Origin: Candidatus Eiseniibacteriota bacterium
GTDB lineage: Bacteria > Arandabacterota > Arandabacteria > JAGLYR01
Direction: 5' to 3'
DNA length: 21,203 nt
Assembly: GCA_023132135.1 (NCBI GenBank)
Contig: JAGLYR010000056.1
Span: forward strand, 1-21,203
Shown here piece after piece: positions 8,697 through 21,203 of this stretch. A program made the translations under genes and the position numbers. Numbering within the stretch: position 1 is the stretch's first letter; the number at the start of each line of letters is the position of its first letter. A model generated the notes under the pieces. The model searched no databases. It was not told the origin of the DNA and saw nothing but the letters and a program-made list of their open reading frames with translations.

Positions 8697-8970
8697 AGAA
8701 GGGATATCCCAAGCATCGTCTCCACCCGGTGGGCACCAATGGGCGATTGTCCCGGAGACCCATGCGCTCCACCCCGCGGAGCATTTCATCCTTGTCGTGG
8801 GCTATAACCCTCAGACCGACGAGATGATCTACAACAGCCACAATCGGAGACAACGCCTCAAAGCATCCAAGCTGCTGGGCATCATCGACACCTTCTCCCT
8901 CGTCAACCGTCACGACTGGACCGGCGCGCTCTACGTTCCTCTTCCGGCGAAGGCTCCCGCGCGCCGCTGA
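8697..8970 (+). pseudogene. C39-peptidase-like C-terminal fragment, copy 1
   Basis: A frame ending at the TGA at 8968-8970 encodes about 90 residues including AEHFILVVGYNPQTDEMIYN and ending near WTGALYVPL. The H-F-I-L-V-V-G-Y-N stretch resembles the catalytic-His strand of papain-like C39 peptidases (Peptidase_C39_2). The N-terminal half that would carry the catalytic Cys is missing, and there is no proper ribosome binding site. A 271-bp segment (8697-8967) recurs at 10152-10422 with 11 mismatches and no gaps by my count. Seven of the 11 differences change an amino acid, which argues against purifying selection. Family assignment is tentative. Confidence 0.6.
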
Positions 8971-9235: not shown

Positions 9236-9850
9236 CTACCGGAACAGGATCTTCACGCCGCTCCAACTCCCCTCCTCGGTCTCCGTCGGACATGTGCACG
9301 AGGGAAGCACACCCGTCAGTTCGCCGAAGCCGACAAAATCTCCCGACTTGAGAACAAGCAAGGAATCAGGGTCCGTGATCGGAATGGGCGGCCAGTTCGA
9401 GAAGAAACAGAATGTCCCGGAACCCTGGTACATGGGGAAGCAGCCACAGAGCTCCAGAGGCTCGAACTTCACCAACGGCACATCCAGACCGGGAATGCTG
9501 GGATCCTGGCAGGTGAAGTAGGCCCAGTATTCCACCGTGCAGGGCTCGCCTTCGGCTTCCCCTGTTGAGGTACCCGCGACATCGAGCGCGGCGAAGGAGA
9601 AGAAATCGCACACGCAGGGACACTCCTCGAGCTGGAGAAGCACATCAAAATGACTGACGGTGCTGATCCCAGGAACGTCCCAGGTCAGAGTAATGCAGTA
9701 CTCCCAGTCCCACAGCTCGGGATAGCCTGACGGTTGAGCTTCACTGGTCCCCGAGAACACATATTGCCCCTGGGCCCCTGAGGGCAAGACCAGCATCGTC
9801 CAAGAAATGAGAAACAGAGAAACACTCCATCCAAAACGGTATCGATTCAT
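9236..9850 (-). CDS. Small exported protein of unknown family with WG-x-x-K-like C-terminal tail
   Basis: A 204-residue protein. The start at 9850 is chosen because it begins the hydrophobic signal MNRYRFGWSVSLFLISWTML, cleaved probably after ALPSGAQG-type residues, with a purine-rich GGAGGTGGAG about 8-12 nt upstream. The mature protein is a single acidic, cysteine-rich domain (ECPCVCDFF, EPLELCGCF, LPSCTC). I recognise no named family. It ends GSWSGVKILFR, a variant of the tail found on three other exported proteins of this island (S replaces G after W). A near-perfect promoter lies about 120 bp upstream. A 9-bp tandem repeat begins right after its stop codon, followed by a 17-bp inverted repeat. 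Confidence 0.85.
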   Translation of the reverse strand: MNRYRFGWSVSLFLISWTMLVLPSGAQGQYVFSGTSEAQPSGYPELWDWEYCITLTWDVPGISTVSHFDVLLQLEECPCVCDFFSFAALDVAGTSTGEAEGEPCTVEYWAYFTCQDPSIPGLDVPLVKFEPLELCGCFPMYQGSGTFCFFSNWPPIPITDPDSLLVLKSGDFVGFGELTGVLPSCTCPTETEEGSWSGVKILFR

Positions 9851-9968
9851 CTCTATGCTCCACCTCCCACCAGGGTACAGCTCCGCCTCATGCGGAGATG
9901 TTGTCCACATTTCACCGCGTCGCTGTCTCCATGATCTATCGCACAATCCTTCCTATCACACAGATAGT

Positions 9969-10151: not shown

Positions 10152-10449
10152 AGAAGGGATCTCCCAAGCATCGTCTCCGGCCGGTGGGCACCCATGGGCG
10201 ATTGCCCCGGAGACCCATGCACTCCACCCCGCGGAGCATTTCATCCTTGTCGTGGGCTATAACCCTCAGACCGACGAGATGATCTACAACAGTCACAATC
10301 GGAGACAACGCTTCAAAGCATCCAGGCTGCTGGGCATCATCGACACCTTCTCCCTCGTCAACCGTTACGACTGGACCGGCGCGCTCTACGTTCCTCTTCC
10401 GGCGAAGGCTCCCGCGCACCGCCGAACAGCTTTTCAACACCTCTGTTGA
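10152..10449 (+). pseudogene. C39-peptidase-like C-terminal fragment, copy 2
   Basis: Second copy of the 271-bp segment at 8697-8967, in the same orientation and with no indels, but joined to different flanks. The frame again encodes AEHFILVVGYNPQTDEMIYN and WTGALYVPL. It then runs on into unrelated sequence (HRRTAFQHLC) to a TGA at 10447-10449, because the original stop is lost. There is no catalytic Cys half. It is best explained as a duplicated relic, with the peptidase family assignment tentative. Confidence 0.6.
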
Positions 10450-10525: not shown

Positions 10526-10551
10526 ACCACTTGCTTCGAGAGGCAATGTGT

Positions 10552-12789
10552 ATGACAAGAGCGAACAGGAAAACATGCCCGGTGTTGTTTCTCCTTCTAT
10601 TCCCGCTTCTCCTTCTGCTTCCGTGCTCGGTCGAAGCCGCCACGGTCGCCGGTTTTGTCTACGACGCCGAAAACGGGGAAGCACTGCCCTATGCCAACGT
10701 CTTTTTCCGAAACGCTCCCTGGGGTGACATGGCGAACAGGAAGGGCTACTACGTGATTCCCGCACTTCCCGCCGGCGAGTACGAAATCGTCTTCGGCTAC
10801 ATGGGCTACCGGCAAGAGGTTCGAACCATCACGCTGGCGGAAAACGAAGAGATGACAATCTCGGTCGAGCTGCAACCTCAGGCCATTCAAATGGCAACCG
10901 TTGAGGTCAACGAAACTGCGAGCGATCTCGCGCTGGAGACCGGCAAGCTCTACCTCGCGACACGAGATTTGACCCACATGCCCGCGCCGGTCGAGGCAGA
11001 CGTCTTTCGAGCGGTTCAAATGCTTCCCGGCGTGAGCACGCTCTCCGACTACTCGAGCGGCCTCTACGTTCGGGGAGGAAGCGCCGACCAGAACCTGATC
11101 CTTCTCGATGATATGGACGTCTACAATCCCGATCACCTCTTCGGATTCTTCAGTACTTTCAACGTCGATGCCGTCAAGACGGTCGAGCTGCAGAAGGGCG
11201 GATTCCCGGCGCAACACGGCGGCAGGCTTTCCTCGGTCCTCGACGTCCAGAACAGGGACGGCAACCGGCGCGAAATCGAGGGCGTCGCCCGCCTGAGTCT
11301 GATCAGCGCAAGCGCCACTGTCGAAGGTCCATGGAAACGAGGATCCTGGATGGTGTCCGGCCGCCAGACGTTCATCGAGCAGCTGGCCAGACTCAGCGAC
11401 ATCGATCTTCCGTACGAGTTCTACGACCTGCACGCGAAGGGCAATTACGATTTCGCCGAAAACGACCGGTCGAGTGTCAGCTACTACCGGGGCCGCGACA
11501 GGCTGGACTGGAACCAGGAGAACCTGGACATTCTGCTCGAGTGGGGAAACGACACCTGGAGCACCCAGTGGACGCATCTCTTCAGCAGCCGCGTGTTCTC
11601 CCATCTACTCATCGGCGGCAGCAGGTTCCAGACCATCGCCGAAGTCGAGTTCGACGATTTCAAGGTCAGCACCGAAAACAAGATCACCGATGTGTGCGCC
11701 AAGTGGGGATTGTCCTACCGGCCGAACCGCTCGCACCTGATCGATTTCGGCGCGGAAGTCAAAGCGCTGAATTTCTCGTACGTGGACAGGATCGGCAAGG
11801 AGTCGGGCTCCGAGCTCAAGTATGACGGAGTCTACGGTGCCCTCTACGCGCAGGACGAATGGATGCTGAGTCCAATCTGGAGCGCCGAGGCAGGACTCCG
11901 GCTGAACTACTACACGGAGGGTGAATACTTTCGACTGTCGCCCCGGCTCTCCCTCCGCAGGCAGATCCGGGAATACGTATCGGCCCATGCCAGGTACGGG
12001 CGCTACTCCCAGTTCCTGAACCTTGTCGCCTTCGAGGGCGCCAGTTTTGCGTCGATGTGGTTTCCGGTCGACAAGACCCTGGATCCTGGTATCGCCGATC
12101 ACTACATTCTGGGAGTCGAGTTCGGACCCTACCGCCATATCTCCCTGTCGATCGAAGGGTACTACAAGCCGTACGACAACGTCGTCGAGTTCAGCGAGGA
12201 ATACCAGCGCTCCCTCGGCGACAACGATCCCGATATGTGCCGGTTGTTCAACTCCGGTACCGGAGAGGCTTACGGGGTGGACGTGCATCTCAGGAACCAG
12301 GTCTCGCGCTTCACGGGGTGGATCGGTTACGCGTACGGGTACTCCCGCCGGACCATCAAGGACTACAACTTCGGCAGGGAATACGCACCGACCTATGATC
12401 GCCGCCACCAGGTCTACGTCGTTCAGGACATCTCGGTCGGGTACGGACTGAGCCTGAACGCAATCTTCCGGTACGGATCGGGCCAGCCGGTAACACTGGC
12501 TTCCGGGCGATACACGGTTCATGACATCACCGGTCGCGAGTACGAAACTCCACTCTACGGGGACATCAACACCGGCCGGCTTCCTTCCTACCATCGACTG
12601 GATCTGGGAATCTCGAAGCGCAAGAGAGTCGCCGGCATGGACATGGAGTTCGGACTTCAGGTGATCAACGCGTACAACAGGAAAAACGTATACATTCGCG
12701 AGTACGACATGGAGAAGAATCCGGCGGAGTACAGGGATGTTACGATGCTTCCCATTCTTCCGACGATCTCCGTAAGCGCCAGGTTCTAG
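10552..12789 (+). CDS. TonB-dependent outer-membrane receptor with CarboxypepD_reg-like N-terminal domain
   Basis: A 745-residue outer-membrane protein. The ATG at 10552 follows GAGAGG by 8 nt and starts a signal peptide rich in Leu (VLFLLLFPLLLLLPCSVEAA); an in-frame ATG at 10531 is less likely. Residues about 30-112 are a carboxypeptidase-regulatory-like beta-sandwich (TVAGFVYDAENGEALPYANV). Residues about 130-240 form the plug (VFRAVQMLPGVSTLSDYSSG, LYVRGGSADQNLILLDDMDV). The rest is a 22-strand-type barrel ending ISVSARF with a terminal aromatic residue. Such receptors import large or scarce ligands using TonB-ExbBD energy; the ligand cannot be read. The gene for a lipoprotein follows after 23 bp. 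A plug fragment of a paralogue survives at 15472-15630. Confidence 0.93.
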   Translation: MTRANRKTCPVLFLLLFPLLLLLPCSVEAATVAGFVYDAENGEALPYANVFFRNAPWGDMANRKGYYVIPALPAGEYEIVFGYMGYRQEVRTITLAENEEMTISVELQPQAIQMATVEVNETASDLALETGKLYLATRDLTHMPAPVEADVFRAVQMLPGVSTLSDYSSGLYVRGGSADQNLILLDDMDVYNPDHLFGFFSTFNVDAVKTVELQKGGFPAQHGGRLSSVLDVQNRDGNRREIEGVARLSLISASATVEGPWKRGSWMVSGRQTFIEQLARLSDIDLPYEFYDLHAKGNYDFAENDRSSVSYYRGRDRLDWNQENLDILLEWGNDTWSTQWTHLFSSRVFSHLLIGGSRFQTIAEVEFDDFKVSTENKITDVCAKWGLSYRPNRSHLIDFGAEVKALNFSYVDRIGKESGSELKYDGVYGALYAQDEWMLSPIWSAEAGLRLNYYTEGEYFRLSPRLSLRRQIREYVSAHARYGRYSQFLNLVAFEGASFASMWFPVDKTLDPGIADHYILGVEFGPYRHISLSIEGYYKPYDNVVEFSEEYQRSLGDNDPDMCRLFNSGTGEAYGVDVHLRNQVSRFTGWIGYAYGYSRRTIKDYNFGREYAPTYDRRHQVYVVQDISVGYGLSLNAIFRYGSGQPVTLASGRYTVHDITGREYETPLYGDINTGRLPSYHRLDLGISKRKRVAGMDMEFGLQVINAYNRKNVYIREYDMEKNPAEYRDVTMLPILPTISVSARF

Positions 12790-12812
12790 CCGGATGAGTA
12801 AGGAGAAAATCA

Positions 12813-13706
12813 ATGCCCCTTGCGATGAAGACTAAGAAGTTCGATCGACTTGCACAAATCGCCGTTTCACTCGGCCTTGTGCTTGTGGTGTTCTCCGGGT
12901 GTGGCGAGGACGTGAACAAGCCGGGCACCGAGTCAACGTACGTTCTCTTCGGTTACCTGTACGTTGGCGAGACGGTAAGCGAAGAGAACGCCATCTTCCT
13001 GGCCTGGACCCGGTCGATTGAAGAAACCTACCAGAGAGAGGACGCTGTCGTATCGGGCGCCGTCGTGACACTCCGGCGTGAAGGATCAGTTGTCCGGGAT
13101 ACGTTGGAGATGGTCGAACCGGGCTACTACGCAAATCCCGATGTCGCGATTGGACCGCTCGAGACGTACCACCTCGACGTCTATATCGGCGGAAACCTCG
13201 AGATCACGTCAACAACGACTACGCCGAACGCTTTCACGATTGAAACCGATCTTCGCGAGGCGCCGCTGACGATGGTCCACGGCGACATTCCCGATTCGTT
13301 TGGCGTCCTCATCGACTCACCGGACGAAACACAGATCTTCATGGTAGACATCTACTGCACGGAAGACTGGCAGGACGCCGTGTTCCTCGAGGGCTACCAG
13401 CACGGCCAGCGCAACCATCCCGATGACTACGAGAGGTACGGCGGGGACAACAGCGAGCCTAGGCACATCTGTGCCTTCTTCGCGCTGGACGATCTCGAAA
13501 AAGACGGCGACCGGTTCGTGCTGGACTGGTACAGCGCTATGATGGTGTTCCAGGGCACGTACGACGTGGCCTTTCTCACAATTGACGACAATTACTACAA
13601 CTACCTCTACCGCGACTTTCCGGAGAGGAACGCTGGCGTCGTGGGCGGCATAGGAGTGTTCGCCTCCGCCTGTCGGAAGGCGTTCTGTGTGGAGGTGGTG
13701 GAGTAG
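12813..13706 (+). CDS. Outer-membrane lipoprotein paired with the TonB receptor, DUF4249-like
   Basis: A 297-residue lipoprotein. AAGGAG lies 7 nt before the ATG at 12813. The signal peptide ends in the lipobox VFSGC with the lipidated Cys at residue 30. After that comes an Ig-like segment (VLFGYLYVGETVSEENAIF, VVSGAVVTLRREGS) and a C-terminal part with an NYYNYLYRDFPERNAGVVGG-type ending. This layout and the ending GGIGVFASACRKAFCVEVVE resemble DUF4249-type lipoproteins that sit next to TonB-dependent receptors in Bacteroidota and act as ligand-capturing lids in the SusC/SusD manner. The assignment is by resemblance only. It is co-transcribed with the receptor (23-bp gap) and followed by a strong terminator. 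Confidence 0.8.
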   Translation: MPLAMKTKKFDRLAQIAVSLGLVLVVFSGCGEDVNKPGTESTYVLFGYLYVGETVSEENAIFLAWTRSIEETYQREDAVVSGAVVTLRREGSVVRDTLEMVEPGYYANPDVAIGPLETYHLDVYIGGNLEITSTTTTPNAFTIETDLREAPLTMVHGDIPDSFGVLIDSPDETQIFMVDIYCTEDWQDAVFLEGYQHGQRNHPDDYERYGGDNSEPRHICAFFALDDLEKDGDRFVLDWYSAMMVFQGTYDVAFLTIDDNYYNYLYRDFPERNAGVVGGIGVFASACRKAFCVEVVE

Positions 13707-13771: not shown

Positions 13772-14404
13772 CTAGAATGTCGGTGAGGTGACGATGTACC
13801 TCCCCGACACGTGATAGTAGATTCGAACACGCCAGTCGAAGTTGGTGTCCCTTTCCTGGGGATTGGATGTACCGGCGGATGTGCCGCGGATCTCGAAGGA
13901 CGACACCGTGTAGCCCTTCAGGGCCACCAGCAGGTCCGCCATCAGATCGTTCAGGAAATCGATACCGGCTGTATTGATAGGCGCCGGCTTGAGGATTCCC
14001 AGAAGCGGATAGACAGCCTCGCTGTAGTTACTGATGAGAGTTTGCGAAGCCCCCGTGTCCGACCGTTCCACCGTCACCGAGGCGCCAAAGATCTCCCGAT
14101 CCGTCTCCGGCTCGTTGTAGGCAACCGTTCCATACTGCACCGAGGCTACTCGAATGGTATCGATCATGCCGATCTCGATGCCGGCCTCGTCCAGGTCCAG
14201 CCGGAGCTGGTCGACGTTGATGATCTCGAAGCCGCTGCCGACATTAATGCTTCCCCGGGCCTGGAATGTGAACTCGATGAATTCCTCCGTCACGAGCGTC
14301 ATCTCAATGTCTTCGGTCCCCGGGACTCCCGGACACTTGGCGCCGAGAAGGAGGACGCCTAGTGCAAGATAAATCAGGATTTGCAGAACTGCTTTCTTGC
14401 GCAT
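13772..14404 (-). CDS. Exported small protein of unknown function, possible lipoprotein
   Basis: A 210-residue protein with an N-terminal hydrophobic segment (LQILIYLALGVLLLGAKCPG). GGAGG lies shortly before the ATG at 14404. Cys24 sits where a lipobox Cys would be, but the preceding residues G-A-K are atypical because Lys at -1 is not accepted by the usual lipobox pattern. Lipidation is therefore uncertain. The mature part looks beta-rich, with alternating hydrophobic strands (FIEFTFQARGSINVGSGFEI, FDWRVRIYYHVSGRYIV). I recognise no family. The gene starts 12 bp after the stop of the outer-membrane barrel gene, so the two form an operon and may act together at the outer membrane. Confidence 0.8.
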   Translation of the reverse strand: MRKKAVLQILIYLALGVLLLGAKCPGVPGTEDIEMTLVTEEFIEFTFQARGSINVGSGFEIINVDQLRLDLDEAGIEIGMIDTIRVASVQYGTVAYNEPETDREIFGASVTVERSDTGASQTLISNYSEAVYPLLGILKPAPINTAGIDFLNDLMADLLVALKGYTVSSFEIRGTSAGTSNPQERDTNFDWRVRIYYHVSGRYIVTSPTF

Positions 14405-14416
14405 GGTCAGAACCTC

Positions 14417-15313
14417 CTACATCCCGAAGTGTAAGCCCAGGGCGATACCGGTGGCGGCCCCGGAGTTAAGCTCGACAAACACCTGCACCGGCGTGAGTTT
14501 GACAAGCAGGCCGGTTGTGAGATGCATGTTGGTTTCGTTGTCGAGAGTGAGATCGAAGGACAGATCCGGATAATCCTCGTCCACATACTTCGCGTCCAGC
14601 TCGATGGAATCGTATCCCAGTCCAACGTAGGGCTGGAAAATGGCGAACTGTTTGCTCGCCGTCACATTGAAATGCGTGGCACTCGCCTTGACGACGTCAT
14701 TTCCAATTTCGAAGCCCTGCATGAAGAACCCCGCAGCCAAGTCGACCGGCAGGAGCGGCAGCCACTGGGAGATCGAGTGCTGGGCGCCGTACCCGATGTA
14801 CTTGAACTCTCCGAACTCGGAGTCTCCAAGATCCAGTGCGATGTAGCGGACGAGCACACGGGTCCCGAAGATGGAGCCGATCGAGAGCTCGGGCACCGCG
14901 ATCTCAAATCCGTCCAGGTTGAAACCGCCGGGGTAGAGCTGCGCCAGGGAGCTCTGTCCCTCGACGATCACTCCCGTCGGATCCCCGATGACCGTAGGGA
15001 CCCTCGTCGACACCAGGCTGGTGAAGCCCGGCGGGTCCGTGGGCAGGTAGGTTTTGTCCTCATCGTCATAGCCGATGGCCATGGCGGCCAGGCCGATCGA
15101 GAAATTAATACCCACGGCCGGCACGTTTCCGGTGCGGAAGATGGCCGAGTTCATTGTTCCGGAGAGACCAGCGTTCAGCGGACCCAGAAAGCCCGCCACG
15201 TTCGCGTCCGTGAGCCCGCCCAGGTTATCCGACAACTGGGCGAGGACGGGCGCCGACGTCAGGCAGATGGCCAGACACGCCAGAGCCACCGGCAAGTTCT
15301 TTCGAAGGATCAT
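14417..15313 (-). CDS. Outer-membrane beta-barrel protein, DUF6588-like
   Basis: A 298-residue protein. GGGAGGAAAAGC precedes the ATG at 15313, and the signal peptide MILRKNLPVALACLAICLTSAPVLA ends in a good AxA site. The early mature region (NAGLSGTMNSAIFRTGNVPA, INFSIGLAAMAIGYDDEDKT) followed by strands such as VLVRYIALDLGDSEFGEF and a C-terminal barrel ending GIALGLHFGM resembles DUF6588 outer-membrane proteins of Bacteroidota and relatives. Function is not known for that family. It is the first gene of an operon with the small exported protein downstream (12-bp gap). Upstream, in the same orientation, lies the relic of a TonB receptor/lipoprotein pair. Confidence 0.85.
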   Translation of the reverse strand: MILRKNLPVALACLAICLTSAPVLAQLSDNLGGLTDANVAGFLGPLNAGLSGTMNSAIFRTGNVPAVGINFSIGLAAMAIGYDDEDKTYLPTDPPGFTSLVSTRVPTVIGDPTGVIVEGQSSLAQLYPGGFNLDGFEIAVPELSIGSIFGTRVLVRYIALDLGDSEFGEFKYIGYGAQHSISQWLPLLPVDLAAGFFMQGFEIGNDVVKASATHFNVTASKQFAIFQPYVGLGYDSIELDAKYVDEDYPDLSFDLTLDNETNMHLTTGLLVKLTPVQVFVELNSGAATGIALGLHFGM

Positions 15314-15471: not shown

Positions 15472-15630
15472 CTATTCCACGACGCGGACCCGGTAGGTAG
15501 CCCGGCAGGCGGAGGCGAAGACGGCGAGTCCGCCGCCGCGAACGTAGAGCCCGCTTGAGTAGTCGGAGAGAGTGCTGACTCCGGGCAGAGTCTGGACCGC
15601 GCGGAAGAGATCGACCTCGACCTCCTCCAT
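15472..15630 (-). pseudogene. In-frame relic joining a TonB-receptor plug segment to the tail of the DUF4249-like lipoprotein
   Basis: The minus strand from the ATG at 15628-15630 to the TAG at 15472 reads 52 codons. Residues about 7-33 (VDLFRAVQTLPGVSTLSDYS, SGLYVRGG) match residues 149-176 of the intact receptor at 10552-12789. Residues about 34-52 (LAVFASACRATYRVRVVE) match the last 18 residues of the lipoprotein at 12813-13706 (GVFASACRKAFCVEVVE). In the intact operon these two segments are more than 2 kb apart. The junction falls on a Gly-Gly-coding GGNGGN tract present on both sides, which suggests deletion at a microhomology. The nucleotide sequence differs widely from the intact operon, so the parent was a diverged paralogue. 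Confidence 0.85.
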
Positions 15631-17773: not shown

Positions 17774-17794
17774 CGTTACTCGTTACTCGTTATC
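17774..17794. repeat. Heptamer tandem repeat overlapping a stop codon
   Basis: CGTTACT CGTTACT CGTTATC. On the minus strand it reads TAACGAG TAACGAG TAACG, and the first TAA is the stop codon of the giant gene (17790-17792). Confidence 0.75.
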
Positions 17795-20700
17795 TCAGCA
17801 GCACCATCCGTCTTGACGTCGTCTCCCCTCCTGTGCGCAGCCAGCAGAAGTAGATGCCCGAGGCGACGGGCGTGCCGTTCCGGTCGCGACCGTCCCACAA
17901 CACGTGGTAGACGCCCGGAACCTGGTCCCGGTCCACCAGCTGGCGAACGCGACGCCCGGTGACATCGTAGATGCTGAGCGTCACGGACGACCGGGCCGCA
18001 CCGGCCGGGATGGAGTAGGAAATCTGCGTTGAGACCGCGAACGGGTTCGGACTCACCGGGGCCAGCAGCAGACGGGTCGGCTTCTCCGGCGCGGGCGCCT
18101 CTTCCTCGATGCCCGTCAGCATCCAGCACGTCGTGCGCCGGACCGTGTGCGTCGTGGTTCCCGCCATGCCGTCGAGCTGGCTTCCGGGGCAGCCTTCGAA
18201 CTCGATCTGGTAGGTGATGTCAAAGAAGCTGTCCACCGCGAAATCGCCGCTGGGCAGCTGGGTCAACGTCGTCTGGCCCGGACCCGGGAGCCCGAAGTCG
18301 GCCCCTCCCAAAATCCTGAGAGTGCAGAAGTCCGGATCGCCAAAGAGCTCGCCCTGCAGACGGTACAGCTCCGCATCGAAAATCTGAACGGGATCGCCCA
18401 GGTTTCTCGGGGCAATGTGGATTTCTCCGGTGACCGGCACCCAGAGAGAGCGGGTGAACCCGGTCATGGCGCCGGTCCCGATCGCGTCCCACTGGAGCAT
18501 GGCGTCGAACGTGCAGACCTCGCCACCGAGCATACCTCCCGGCGTGTTATGCACGTTGCTGAAGTTCGTCAGCGGCCCGTGCATTTCGATGGTCGTGGCC
18601 GGAGGCAGACCGTCGATGATCATCATGGGCTCGTCCAGATTGTCGTACGGGCATTGGGCTGGGAAGTCGATCGTGCCCGTACCGTTGTCCGGCTCAATGC
18701 AGCAGACCTCGTACACGGTCATCTTCCCCGCGTTCTCGGTCTGGTACCCGTTCTCGCTGCCGTCCTCGCCCGGAACGCCGGTGTCCTTGTCGACATAGAG
18801 CCAGGTGGTCCCGCCGTCGCCCGAGAACCGATAGCAGTAGTCATAATCCCCGGCCGCAAGGGGCAGCGTCACGGTGGCCATGTACTCGTCGTTGTCGGGT
18901 TCGCCGGCTGCGATTCCATCCCAGGCCGGATTCGGGACAGCGTCCGTCCACGTCCAGGCTGCGGGTTGTTCGAACGGATCGCTCCCCGGGCCGAAGCCCG
19001 CCTGGCCGAGGACCAGGCCCGGCAAGGGATCCACACCGGGGGTCTGATCCGTGAGACCCGGCACGTAGACCCGGCCGTAGACTGTAACCTGCGTGCCCGG
19101 GTAATCCTCGATGGTGAGCGGCCACTGGAGGCGGCCCCAGTCGACGGTTCGGGGCTGGTGACACGTGAGCCTGAGGACGGTGTCGGTCGTGATTCCGGCA
19201 TATCCGTCGAGCTGGCTTCCGGGACAACCCTCGAACTCGATCTGGTAGGTGATGTCGAAGAAGCTGTCCACCGCGAAGTCGCCGCTGGGCAGCTGGGTCA
19301 ACGTCGCATGGCCCGGACCCGGGAGCCCGAAGTCGCTCCCTCCCAGAATCCTGAGAGTGCAGAAGTCCGGATCGCCGAAGAGCTCGCCCTGCAGACGGTA
19401 CAGGTCCGCATCGAAAATCTGAACGGGATCGCCCGGGTTCCTCGGGCCGATGTGGATTTCTCCGGTGACCGGCATCCAGAGGTGCCGGCTGAATCCCTGG
19501 AGATTGCCGGTCCCCGTGACGACCCACTCGATTTGGGCATCGAAGGTGCAGACCTCGCCACCGAGAATGCCTCCCGGCGTGTTATGCACGTTGATGAAGT
19601 TCGTCAGCGGCCCGTCGAGCTCAATCGTGTCTCCCGGGGGCAAACCGTCGATGATCATCATCGGGTCGTTGGGATGATCGAAGGGGCAGTCGGGCGGGAA
19701 GTCGATCGTGCCGGTGCCGTTGTCCGGCGCCAGGCAGCAGGTTTCCCAGATGGTCATCTTCCCGGCGTTCTCGGTCTGGTATCCGTTTTCGCTGCCGTCC
19801 TCACCGGGAACTCCCGTGTCCTTGTCCCCGTATACCCACACGAGTCCCCCGTCGCCGGAGAAGCGGAAACAGTAGTCGTAGTCGCCGGGCAGGTTGGGCA
19901 GCGTCACGGCGGCCATGTACTCGTCGTTGTCCGGCTCGCCCGCGGCGATAGCGTCCCAGCCCGGGTTGGGAATCGCATCGGTCCAGTGCCAGCCTGCAGG
20001 CTCCTCGAACGGATCGCTGCCCGGGCCAAAGCCCCACTGAGCGATCACCATACCCGGAACCGTATCGTTGCCCGGAGTCTGGTCCGTGAGCCCAGCGATG
20101 TAGACCCGCCCGTAGATCGTCACCTGCGAGCCCGGGTAGTCCTCGATGGTGTGCGGCCACTGGAGGCGGCACCAATCGACGCTGTAGGTCGTATCGTGGC
20201 ACGTGAGTTTCCGGACCGTGTCGGTCGTGATCCCGGCATACCCGTCGAGCTGGCTTCCGGGACAACCCTCGAACTCGATCTCGTAGGTGATGTCGAAGAA
20301 GCTGTCCACGGCGAAGTCGCCGCTGGGAAGCTCGGTCAGAATCGTCTGGCCCGGGCTCGGAAGTCCGAAGTCGGTTCCTCCCCGAATCCGGAGCGTGCAG
20401 AAGTCCGGATCGCCGAAGAGCTCGCCCTCGAGACGGATGAGATCCGCATCGAAGAGCTGAACGGGATCGCCCGGGTTCCTCGGGCCAATGTGAATTTCTC
20501 CGGTGACCGGCATCCAGAGTTGCCGGTTGAATCCGGTCAAATCGCCCGTTCCCGTGGCGGACCACTGGAGCGAGGCATCGAAGGTGCAGATCTCACCGCC
20601 CAGGATCCCGCCGGGAACGTTGACCACGTTGTAGAAATCCGCGAGCGGACCCCAGAGTTCAATCGTGGTTCCGGGAGGAAGACCGTCGATGATCTTCATC

Positions 20701-21203
20701 GGGTTTGTCGGGTGGTCGTAGGGACAGTCGGGCGGGAAATCAATGGTGCCGGTGCCGTTGTCGGGCGCCGAGCAGCAGACATCTTCATCCAGCACGGTCA
20801 TCTTGCCAGCGTTCTCGGTCTGGTAGCCGTTGTCGGTGTCGTCGATGTCGGCGTAGGTCCAGTCGTAGCCCTTGTTCCCCGAGAACCGATAGCAGTAGTC
20901 GTAGGTCCCGGGGGTGGACGGCACGACAAGATCCGCCATGTACTCATCGTTATAGGGTTCTCCCGCGGCGGCGCCGTCCCAGGCGGGATTGGGCACGGCG
21001 TTGATCCAGGTCCAGGACGGGTCGCTGGACGGATCCGATCCCGAAGGGCCATAGCCCACGTCGGCCAGGATGACACCCGGTATTGGGTCGTTGCCGGTCG
21101 TCTGCTCCGTCACACCTGAGATGGAGAGCCGCCCGTACACAGTGTAGATGGCTCCCGCGTAGTCGTCGATGGTATGCGGCCACTGGAGCCGCGCCCAGTC
21201 GAC
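17790..21203 (-). CDS. Giant modular secreted protein with FlgD-like C-terminal sorting domain, N-terminus off the window
   Basis: An open frame from the right edge to the TAA at 17790 gives the last 1137 residues; the start and signal peptide are not in view. Three tandem modules of about 341-345 residues fill the window. Each begins (V)DWxRLQWPxTIEDYPG, then has a beta-sandwich with GDYDYCYRFSGDGG and ENGYQTENAGKMT. A second domain follows, with PDNGTGTIDFPPDCP, GEIHIGPRNPGDPVQ, GELFGDPDFCTLRI and FAVDSFFDITYQIEFEGCPG. The last 93 residues (17790-18071) are a FlgD Ig-like/type IX-like sorting domain (LLLAPVSPNPF ... LWDGRDRNGTPVASGIYF). I do not recognise the second domain by name. Repeats are nearly identical in places at nucleotide level. 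The role is probably a surface or extracellular structural or binding protein. Confidence 0.93.
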   Translation of the reverse strand, partial: VDWARLQWPHTIDDYAGAIYTVYGRLSISGVTEQTTGNDPIPGVILADVGYGPSGSDPSSDPSWTWINAVPNPAWDGAAAGEPYNDEYMADLVVPSTPGTYDYCYRFSGNKGYDWTYADIDDTDNGYQTENAGKMTVLDEDVCCSAPDNGTGTIDFPPDCPYDHPTNPMKIIDGLPPGTTIELWGPLADFYNVVNVPGGILGGEICTFDASLQWSATGTGDLTGFNRQLWMPVTGEIHIGPRNPGDPVQLFDADLIRLEGELFGDPDFCTLRIRGGTDFGLPSPGQTILTELPSGDFAVDSFFDITYEIEFEGCPGSQLDGYAGITTDTVRKLTCHDTTYSVDWCRLQWPHTIEDYPGSQVTIYGRVYIAGLTDQTPGNDTVPGMVIAQWGFGPGSDPFEEPAGWHWTDAIPNPGWDAIAAGEPDNDEYMAAVTLPNLPGDYDYCFRFSGDGGLVWVYGDKDTGVPGEDGSENGYQTENAGKMTIWETCCLAPDNGTGTIDFPPDCPFDHPNDPMMIIDGLPPGDTIELDGPLTNFINVHNTPGGILGGEVCTFDAQIEWVVTGTGNLQGFSRHLWMPVTGEIHIGPRNPGDPVQIFDADLYRLQGELFGDPDFCTLRILGGSDFGLPGPGHATLTQLPSGDFAVDSFFDITYQIEFEGCPGSQLDGYAGITTDTVLRLTCHQPRTVDWGRLQWPLTIEDYPGTQVTVYGRVYVPGLTDQTPGVDPLPGLVLGQAGFGPGSDPFEQPAAWTWTDAVPNPAWDGIAAGEPDNDEYMATVTLPLAAGDYDYCYRFSGDGGTTWLYVDKDTGVPGEDGSENGYQTENAGKMTVYEVCCIEPDNGTGTIDFPAQCPYDNLDEPMMIIDGLPPATTIEMHGPLTNFSNVHNTPGGMLGGEVCTFDAMLQWDAIGTGAMTGFTRSLWVPVTGEIHIAPRNLGDPVQIFDAELYRLQGELFGDPDFCTLRILGGADFGLPGPGQTTLTQLPSGDFAVDSFFDITYQIEFEGCPGSQLDGMAGTTTHTVRRTTCWMLTGIEEEAPAPEKPTRLLLAPVSPNPFAVSTQISYSIPAGAARSSVTLSIYDVTGRRVRQLVDRDQVPGVYHVLWDGRDRNGTPVASGIYFCWLRTGGETTSRRMVLLR
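18126..19145 (-). repeat. Tandem protein module, unit 3 (last before the sorting domain)
   Basis: Starts VDWGRLQWPLTIEDYPG and ends near TTCW. It is about 340 residues, with the same two-domain layout as the units before it. Stretches near 18180-18290 and 19200-19310 are almost identical in sequence between units 2 and 3. Confidence 0.85.
19146..20180 (-). repeat. Tandem protein module, unit 2
   Basis: 345 residues, starting VDWCRLQWPHTIEDYPG. Contains both a GDYDYCFRFSGDGG segment and the PDNGTGTIDFPP domain. Confidence 0.85.
20181..21203 (-). repeat. Tandem protein module, unit 1 of those visible
   Basis: 341 residues, starting VDWARLQWPHTIDDYAG exactly at the window edge. It is more diverged than units 2 and 3 (it lacks their DTGVPGEDGS segment) and may be preceded by further units. 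Confidence 0.8.

Follow-up and report, generated by a model that had tools for sequence, protein, structure and literature searches.

We find that a short open frame in a 21,203-nucleotide contig of Candidatus Eiseniibacteriota (the whole stretch analysed here, which we call the window) is very probably a recent pseudogene remnant of a second, diverged operon encoding a TonB-dependent receptor and a DUF4249 lipoprotein, inverted with respect to the operon of this kind that survives nearby. The frame, which we refer to as the scar, consists of two pieces, a segment of the receptor plug and the end of the lipoprotein, which are homologous to two adjacent genes and keep the order and strand of those genes, and the joint between them lies in a tract of GGN codons. 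Below we describe this arrangement, examine how far each piece has diverged from its intact counterpart, and weigh the readings under which the frame would be a working gene, a copied fragment or an artefact of assembly.

Architecture of the scar and of the intact operon

The features on which the argument rests are collected in Table 1. In the list of open reading frames the scar measures 159 bp and 52 amino acids, running from ATG to TAG on the minus strand, and its translation is MEEVEVDLFRAVQTLPGVSTLSDYSSGLYVRGGGLAVFASACRATYRVRVVE. The first-pass annotation had described a frame of 52 codons with start, stop and no frameshift, and we find it at exactly the position given. Its description of a plug joined directly to a DUF4249-like tail likewise stands, with the correction that the recognisable tail comes to about 20 residues and not 18. 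The signal peptide, the barrel and the body of the lipoprotein are all absent from these 52 codons.

Table 1. Coordinates of the fused frame, its parts and the intact paralogous genes in the window.
Feature	Position	Strand	Basis
Fused open frame of 52 codons, a probable pseudogene remnant	15472..15630	-	ORF list; no Pfam match; no fused relatives found
TonB plug remnant of the putative lost paralogous receptor, scar residues 4-33	15532..15621	-	87% amino acid identity to intact plug
Candidate deletion joint within GGC GGC GGA tract	15529..15537	-	Comparison with intact plug, intact tail and L004
Final 20 codons and stop codon of the putative lost DUF4249 lipoprotein gene	15472..15534	-	13/20 identical to intact tail
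Surviving TonB-dependent receptor with CarboxypepD_reg_2, Plug and barrel domains, paralogous to the lost one	10531..12789	+	Pfam
Surviving DUF4249 lipoprotein, paralogous to the lost one	12813..13706	+	Pfam PF14054, E 1.8e-8

The intact pair at 10531-13706 passes the Pfam gathering scores of PF13715, PF07715, PF00593 and PF14054, the domain content of a receptor/DUF4249 operon, and lies on the strand opposite to the remnant. It had been placed 3 kb from the scar; measured on the window, the end of the lipoprotein gene is 1.8 kb away and the receptor plug 4.5 kb away. The intact receptor shares 55-56% identity with receptors of two Eisenbacteria genomes, and the intact lipoprotein is 45% identical to its counterparts at two loci, L004 and L091. 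In the window's own genome this is the one intact DUF4249 gene of its kind, and the remaining TonB-receptor matches there show only 22-29% identity.

Divergence of the plug and tail segments

Scar residues 4 to about 33-34 align with the plug of the intact receptor (10990-11082, plus strand) at 87% amino acid identity (E = 1.7e-12), with at least 26 of 30 residues identical, and the same relationship appears in the DNA as a 90-nt inverted repeat, 80% complementary, between 10989-11078 and 15533-15622. As protein, the scar plug is slightly closer to the L004 receptor, from another Candidatus Eisenbacteria genome (93% over 29 residues), than to the intact receptor of the window. Seventeen codons differ between the scar and the intact plug, 14 of them synonymously and 3 nonsynonymously; a nonsynonymous count this low has a probability of 7e-6 if all the changes were neutral and 0.04 if half of them were. 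This ratio argues that the lost gene was functional for a long time before the deletion, and the gene was most likely a real, selected paralogue rather than a random partial copy.

The same ratio bears on the idea that the scar arose by copying parts of the existing operon alone, through template switching or a partial inverted duplication, and that a second full operon never existed. The remnant does lie inverted beside the intact pair, and a partial repeat in the same contig (274 nt, 96%) shows that partial copying occurs. However, a plug that differs by about 20% in its DNA, mainly at synonymous positions, is unexpected of a copy that was never functional, and the copying would have had to take up two pieces separated by about 2.6 kb, keep their order and join them at a GGN tract that they share. 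We consider this explanation quite unlikely.

The tail match is weak in a search until it is anchored at the stop codon. Scar residues 33-52 are 65% identical to the tail of the intact DUF4249 lipoprotein (13644-13703), with E = 0.07 when this segment is taken alone in a whole-genome search; when the alignment is anchored at the stop codon, none of 200,000 shuffles does as well as the observed 13 identities in 20, which puts the match far beyond chance. An alignment of the tail region to L004 extends roughly 15 bases beyond the stop, which we take as chance.

How long ago the two pieces were joined can be bounded from the plug. All 12 of the near-invariant plug residues tested are retained in the scar, and when neutral substitution is simulated, the probability that these residues and the open frame both persist is about 6% at 8% divergence and 3% at 10%. 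Under neutral drift, the divergence since fusion is thus limited to roughly 8-10%. Judged from these residues, the fusion would be recent relative to the split of the paralogues, or else the peptide would be under selection.

The joint and the missing receptor 5' end

The sequence across the joint is GGCGGCGGA. The scar reads CGC GGC GGC GGA CTC, where the intact plug has CGG GGA GGA AGC and the intact tail has GTG GGC GGC ATA. Both parents therefore do contain a GGNGGN tract, as had been claimed for the joint, and the three glycine codons of the scar correspond to a parental overlap of about one GGN codon, a few bases. An overlap of this size is too short for homologous recombination and is consistent with replication slippage or illegitimate joining.

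A second feature of the scar had gone unmentioned in the first-pass annotation. The receptor has also lost about 150 codons on the 5' side of the plug, which would encode the signal peptide and the CarboxypepD_reg domain: no receptor homology remains upstream of the scar ATG, and neither flank outside the frame shows homology to the window's own genes. The first part of the receptor was thus lost as well, and a single internal deletion does not account for everything. That two losses are required counts against reading the scar as an operon remnant.

The joint also bears on whether the contig is a chimera assembled from the reads of two organisms. The contig does come from a fragmented assembly (345 contigs), but at the joint the two pieces have fewer than 10 bases in common, they are joined in frame, in operon order and through homologous ends, and the 5' and 3' flanks both continue into intact genes. 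The shared tract is far shorter than an assembler's word length, and we reject a chimera as almost certainly wrong.

Relatives and the gene neighbourhood

L004 shows the receptor-then-DUF4249 order too, as do several other, more distant loci. Pairs of the BT2172/BT2173 type have been described as a conserved operon across dozens of genera (PMC11003636), and their gene order is common to the intact pair of the window and to the parents of the scar. Compared with that operon, the scar retains only about 30 plug codons and 20 lipoprotein codons, and its likeness rests on the pairing of receptor with DUF4249. Close copies of the receptor occur once each in the genomes of L004 and L005, and relatives carry at most one close copy of the receptor/DUF4249 pair.

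The nearest relatives compared share the class of the window's genome but come from other families. Around DUF6588 orthologues in five genomes of this class, no receptor or ABC genes are present in the available stretches, some of which are on short contigs, and the ABC permease has no close orthologue in the class or in the genomes of L004, L005 and L006. The neighbourhood is therefore not conserved around DUF6588, and it cannot place a second pair at the scar site. The proposal that a second receptor/lipoprotein pair was deleted is accordingly borne out in part: operon order and strand, the 14:3 codon ratio and the conserved operon in relatives support it, and against it, none of the relatives compared shows a full second pair at this exact spot.

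Several other features of the window were recorded. The DUF6588 gene and a following gene without a Pfam match (13772-15313) may form a conserved unit; close to the DUF6588 orthologue, two genomes of the class carry a weak homologue of the second gene. A 274-nt direct repeat, 96% identical, occupies 8697-8970 and 10152-10425, 1455 nt apart, so that its copies flank a gene at 9236-9946 (minus strand) on both sides. Translated, each copy gives the C-terminal part of a protein weakly resembling Peptidase_C39_2 (E about 0.1), and no complete gene is obvious; another contig, C230, has an 85% match to a 104-nt stretch that comprises the beginning of the first copy and its flank. This looks like a recent partial duplication. 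At 17790-21203 (minus strand), a large protein running off the contig contains tandem repeats of about 345 residues, spaced at 1035-1038 nt and 81-91% alike in most blocks, and its C-terminal segment resembles a secretion-sorting tail.

The open frame as a possible gene

The open frame and the kept residues are compatible with a peptide under selection as well. One form of this idea is that a small protein is made from the frame, such as a soluble cytoplasmic decoy or a regulator derived from the plug segment. The ATG, the stop, the unbroken frame, the GAGG immediately 5' of the ATG and the retained conserved plug residues are what such a protein would have. However, the product would lack the receptor signal peptide and the lipoprotein N-terminus, a Pfam search of the frame returns no family, and a promoter search on the minus strand gives no match. 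Chance alone would also put the joint in frame in one deletion out of three. Nor was the fused form found in any collection searched, comprising 84,980 species genomes, 60 relatives, viral contigs and plasmids. Relatives sharing the same short frame, which had been named as the case that would make this a real small gene, were seen in neither the species genomes nor the 60 relatives, the genomes compared lying beyond the genus. We consider an expressed protein very unlikely, and the suggestion that a small fused peptide is made finds no support here. The bolder version, in which the deletion created a new small gene whose 52-residue product with the conserved plug motif is made and retained, for instance as a regulator of the surviving receptor, we regard as highly improbable.

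Discussion

Taking the scar as the remnant of a second operon, we can outline a history for it. The second operon would have remained intact and under selection for a long time, after which a deletion of roughly 2.5 kb would have joined plug codons to the lipoprotein tail where the two had a few bases in common, through replication slippage or illegitimate recombination. The receptor 5' end may have been removed by a separate loss, or by a rearrangement through which the ABC-transporter side came to lie here. That the frame is still open would be due to chance and to the short time since the event.

Deletions between short repeats leave ordinary bacterial pseudogene remnants. The scar resembles these in its internal loss, in the few bases shared at the joint, in having no conserved product and in the presence of an intact paralogue. 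Unlike them, its joint happens to fall in frame between two different genes, which left an open frame.

On this reading the scar is a well-preserved case of ordinary gene decay, and it implies no new mechanism. The surviving pair would still supply the function, probably the uptake of a substrate through a receptor assisted by its surface lipoprotein partner. The window holds a clear example of a redundant receptor operon vanishing yet leaving behind an open, gene-like frame, one that automatic annotation could mistake for a small protein.
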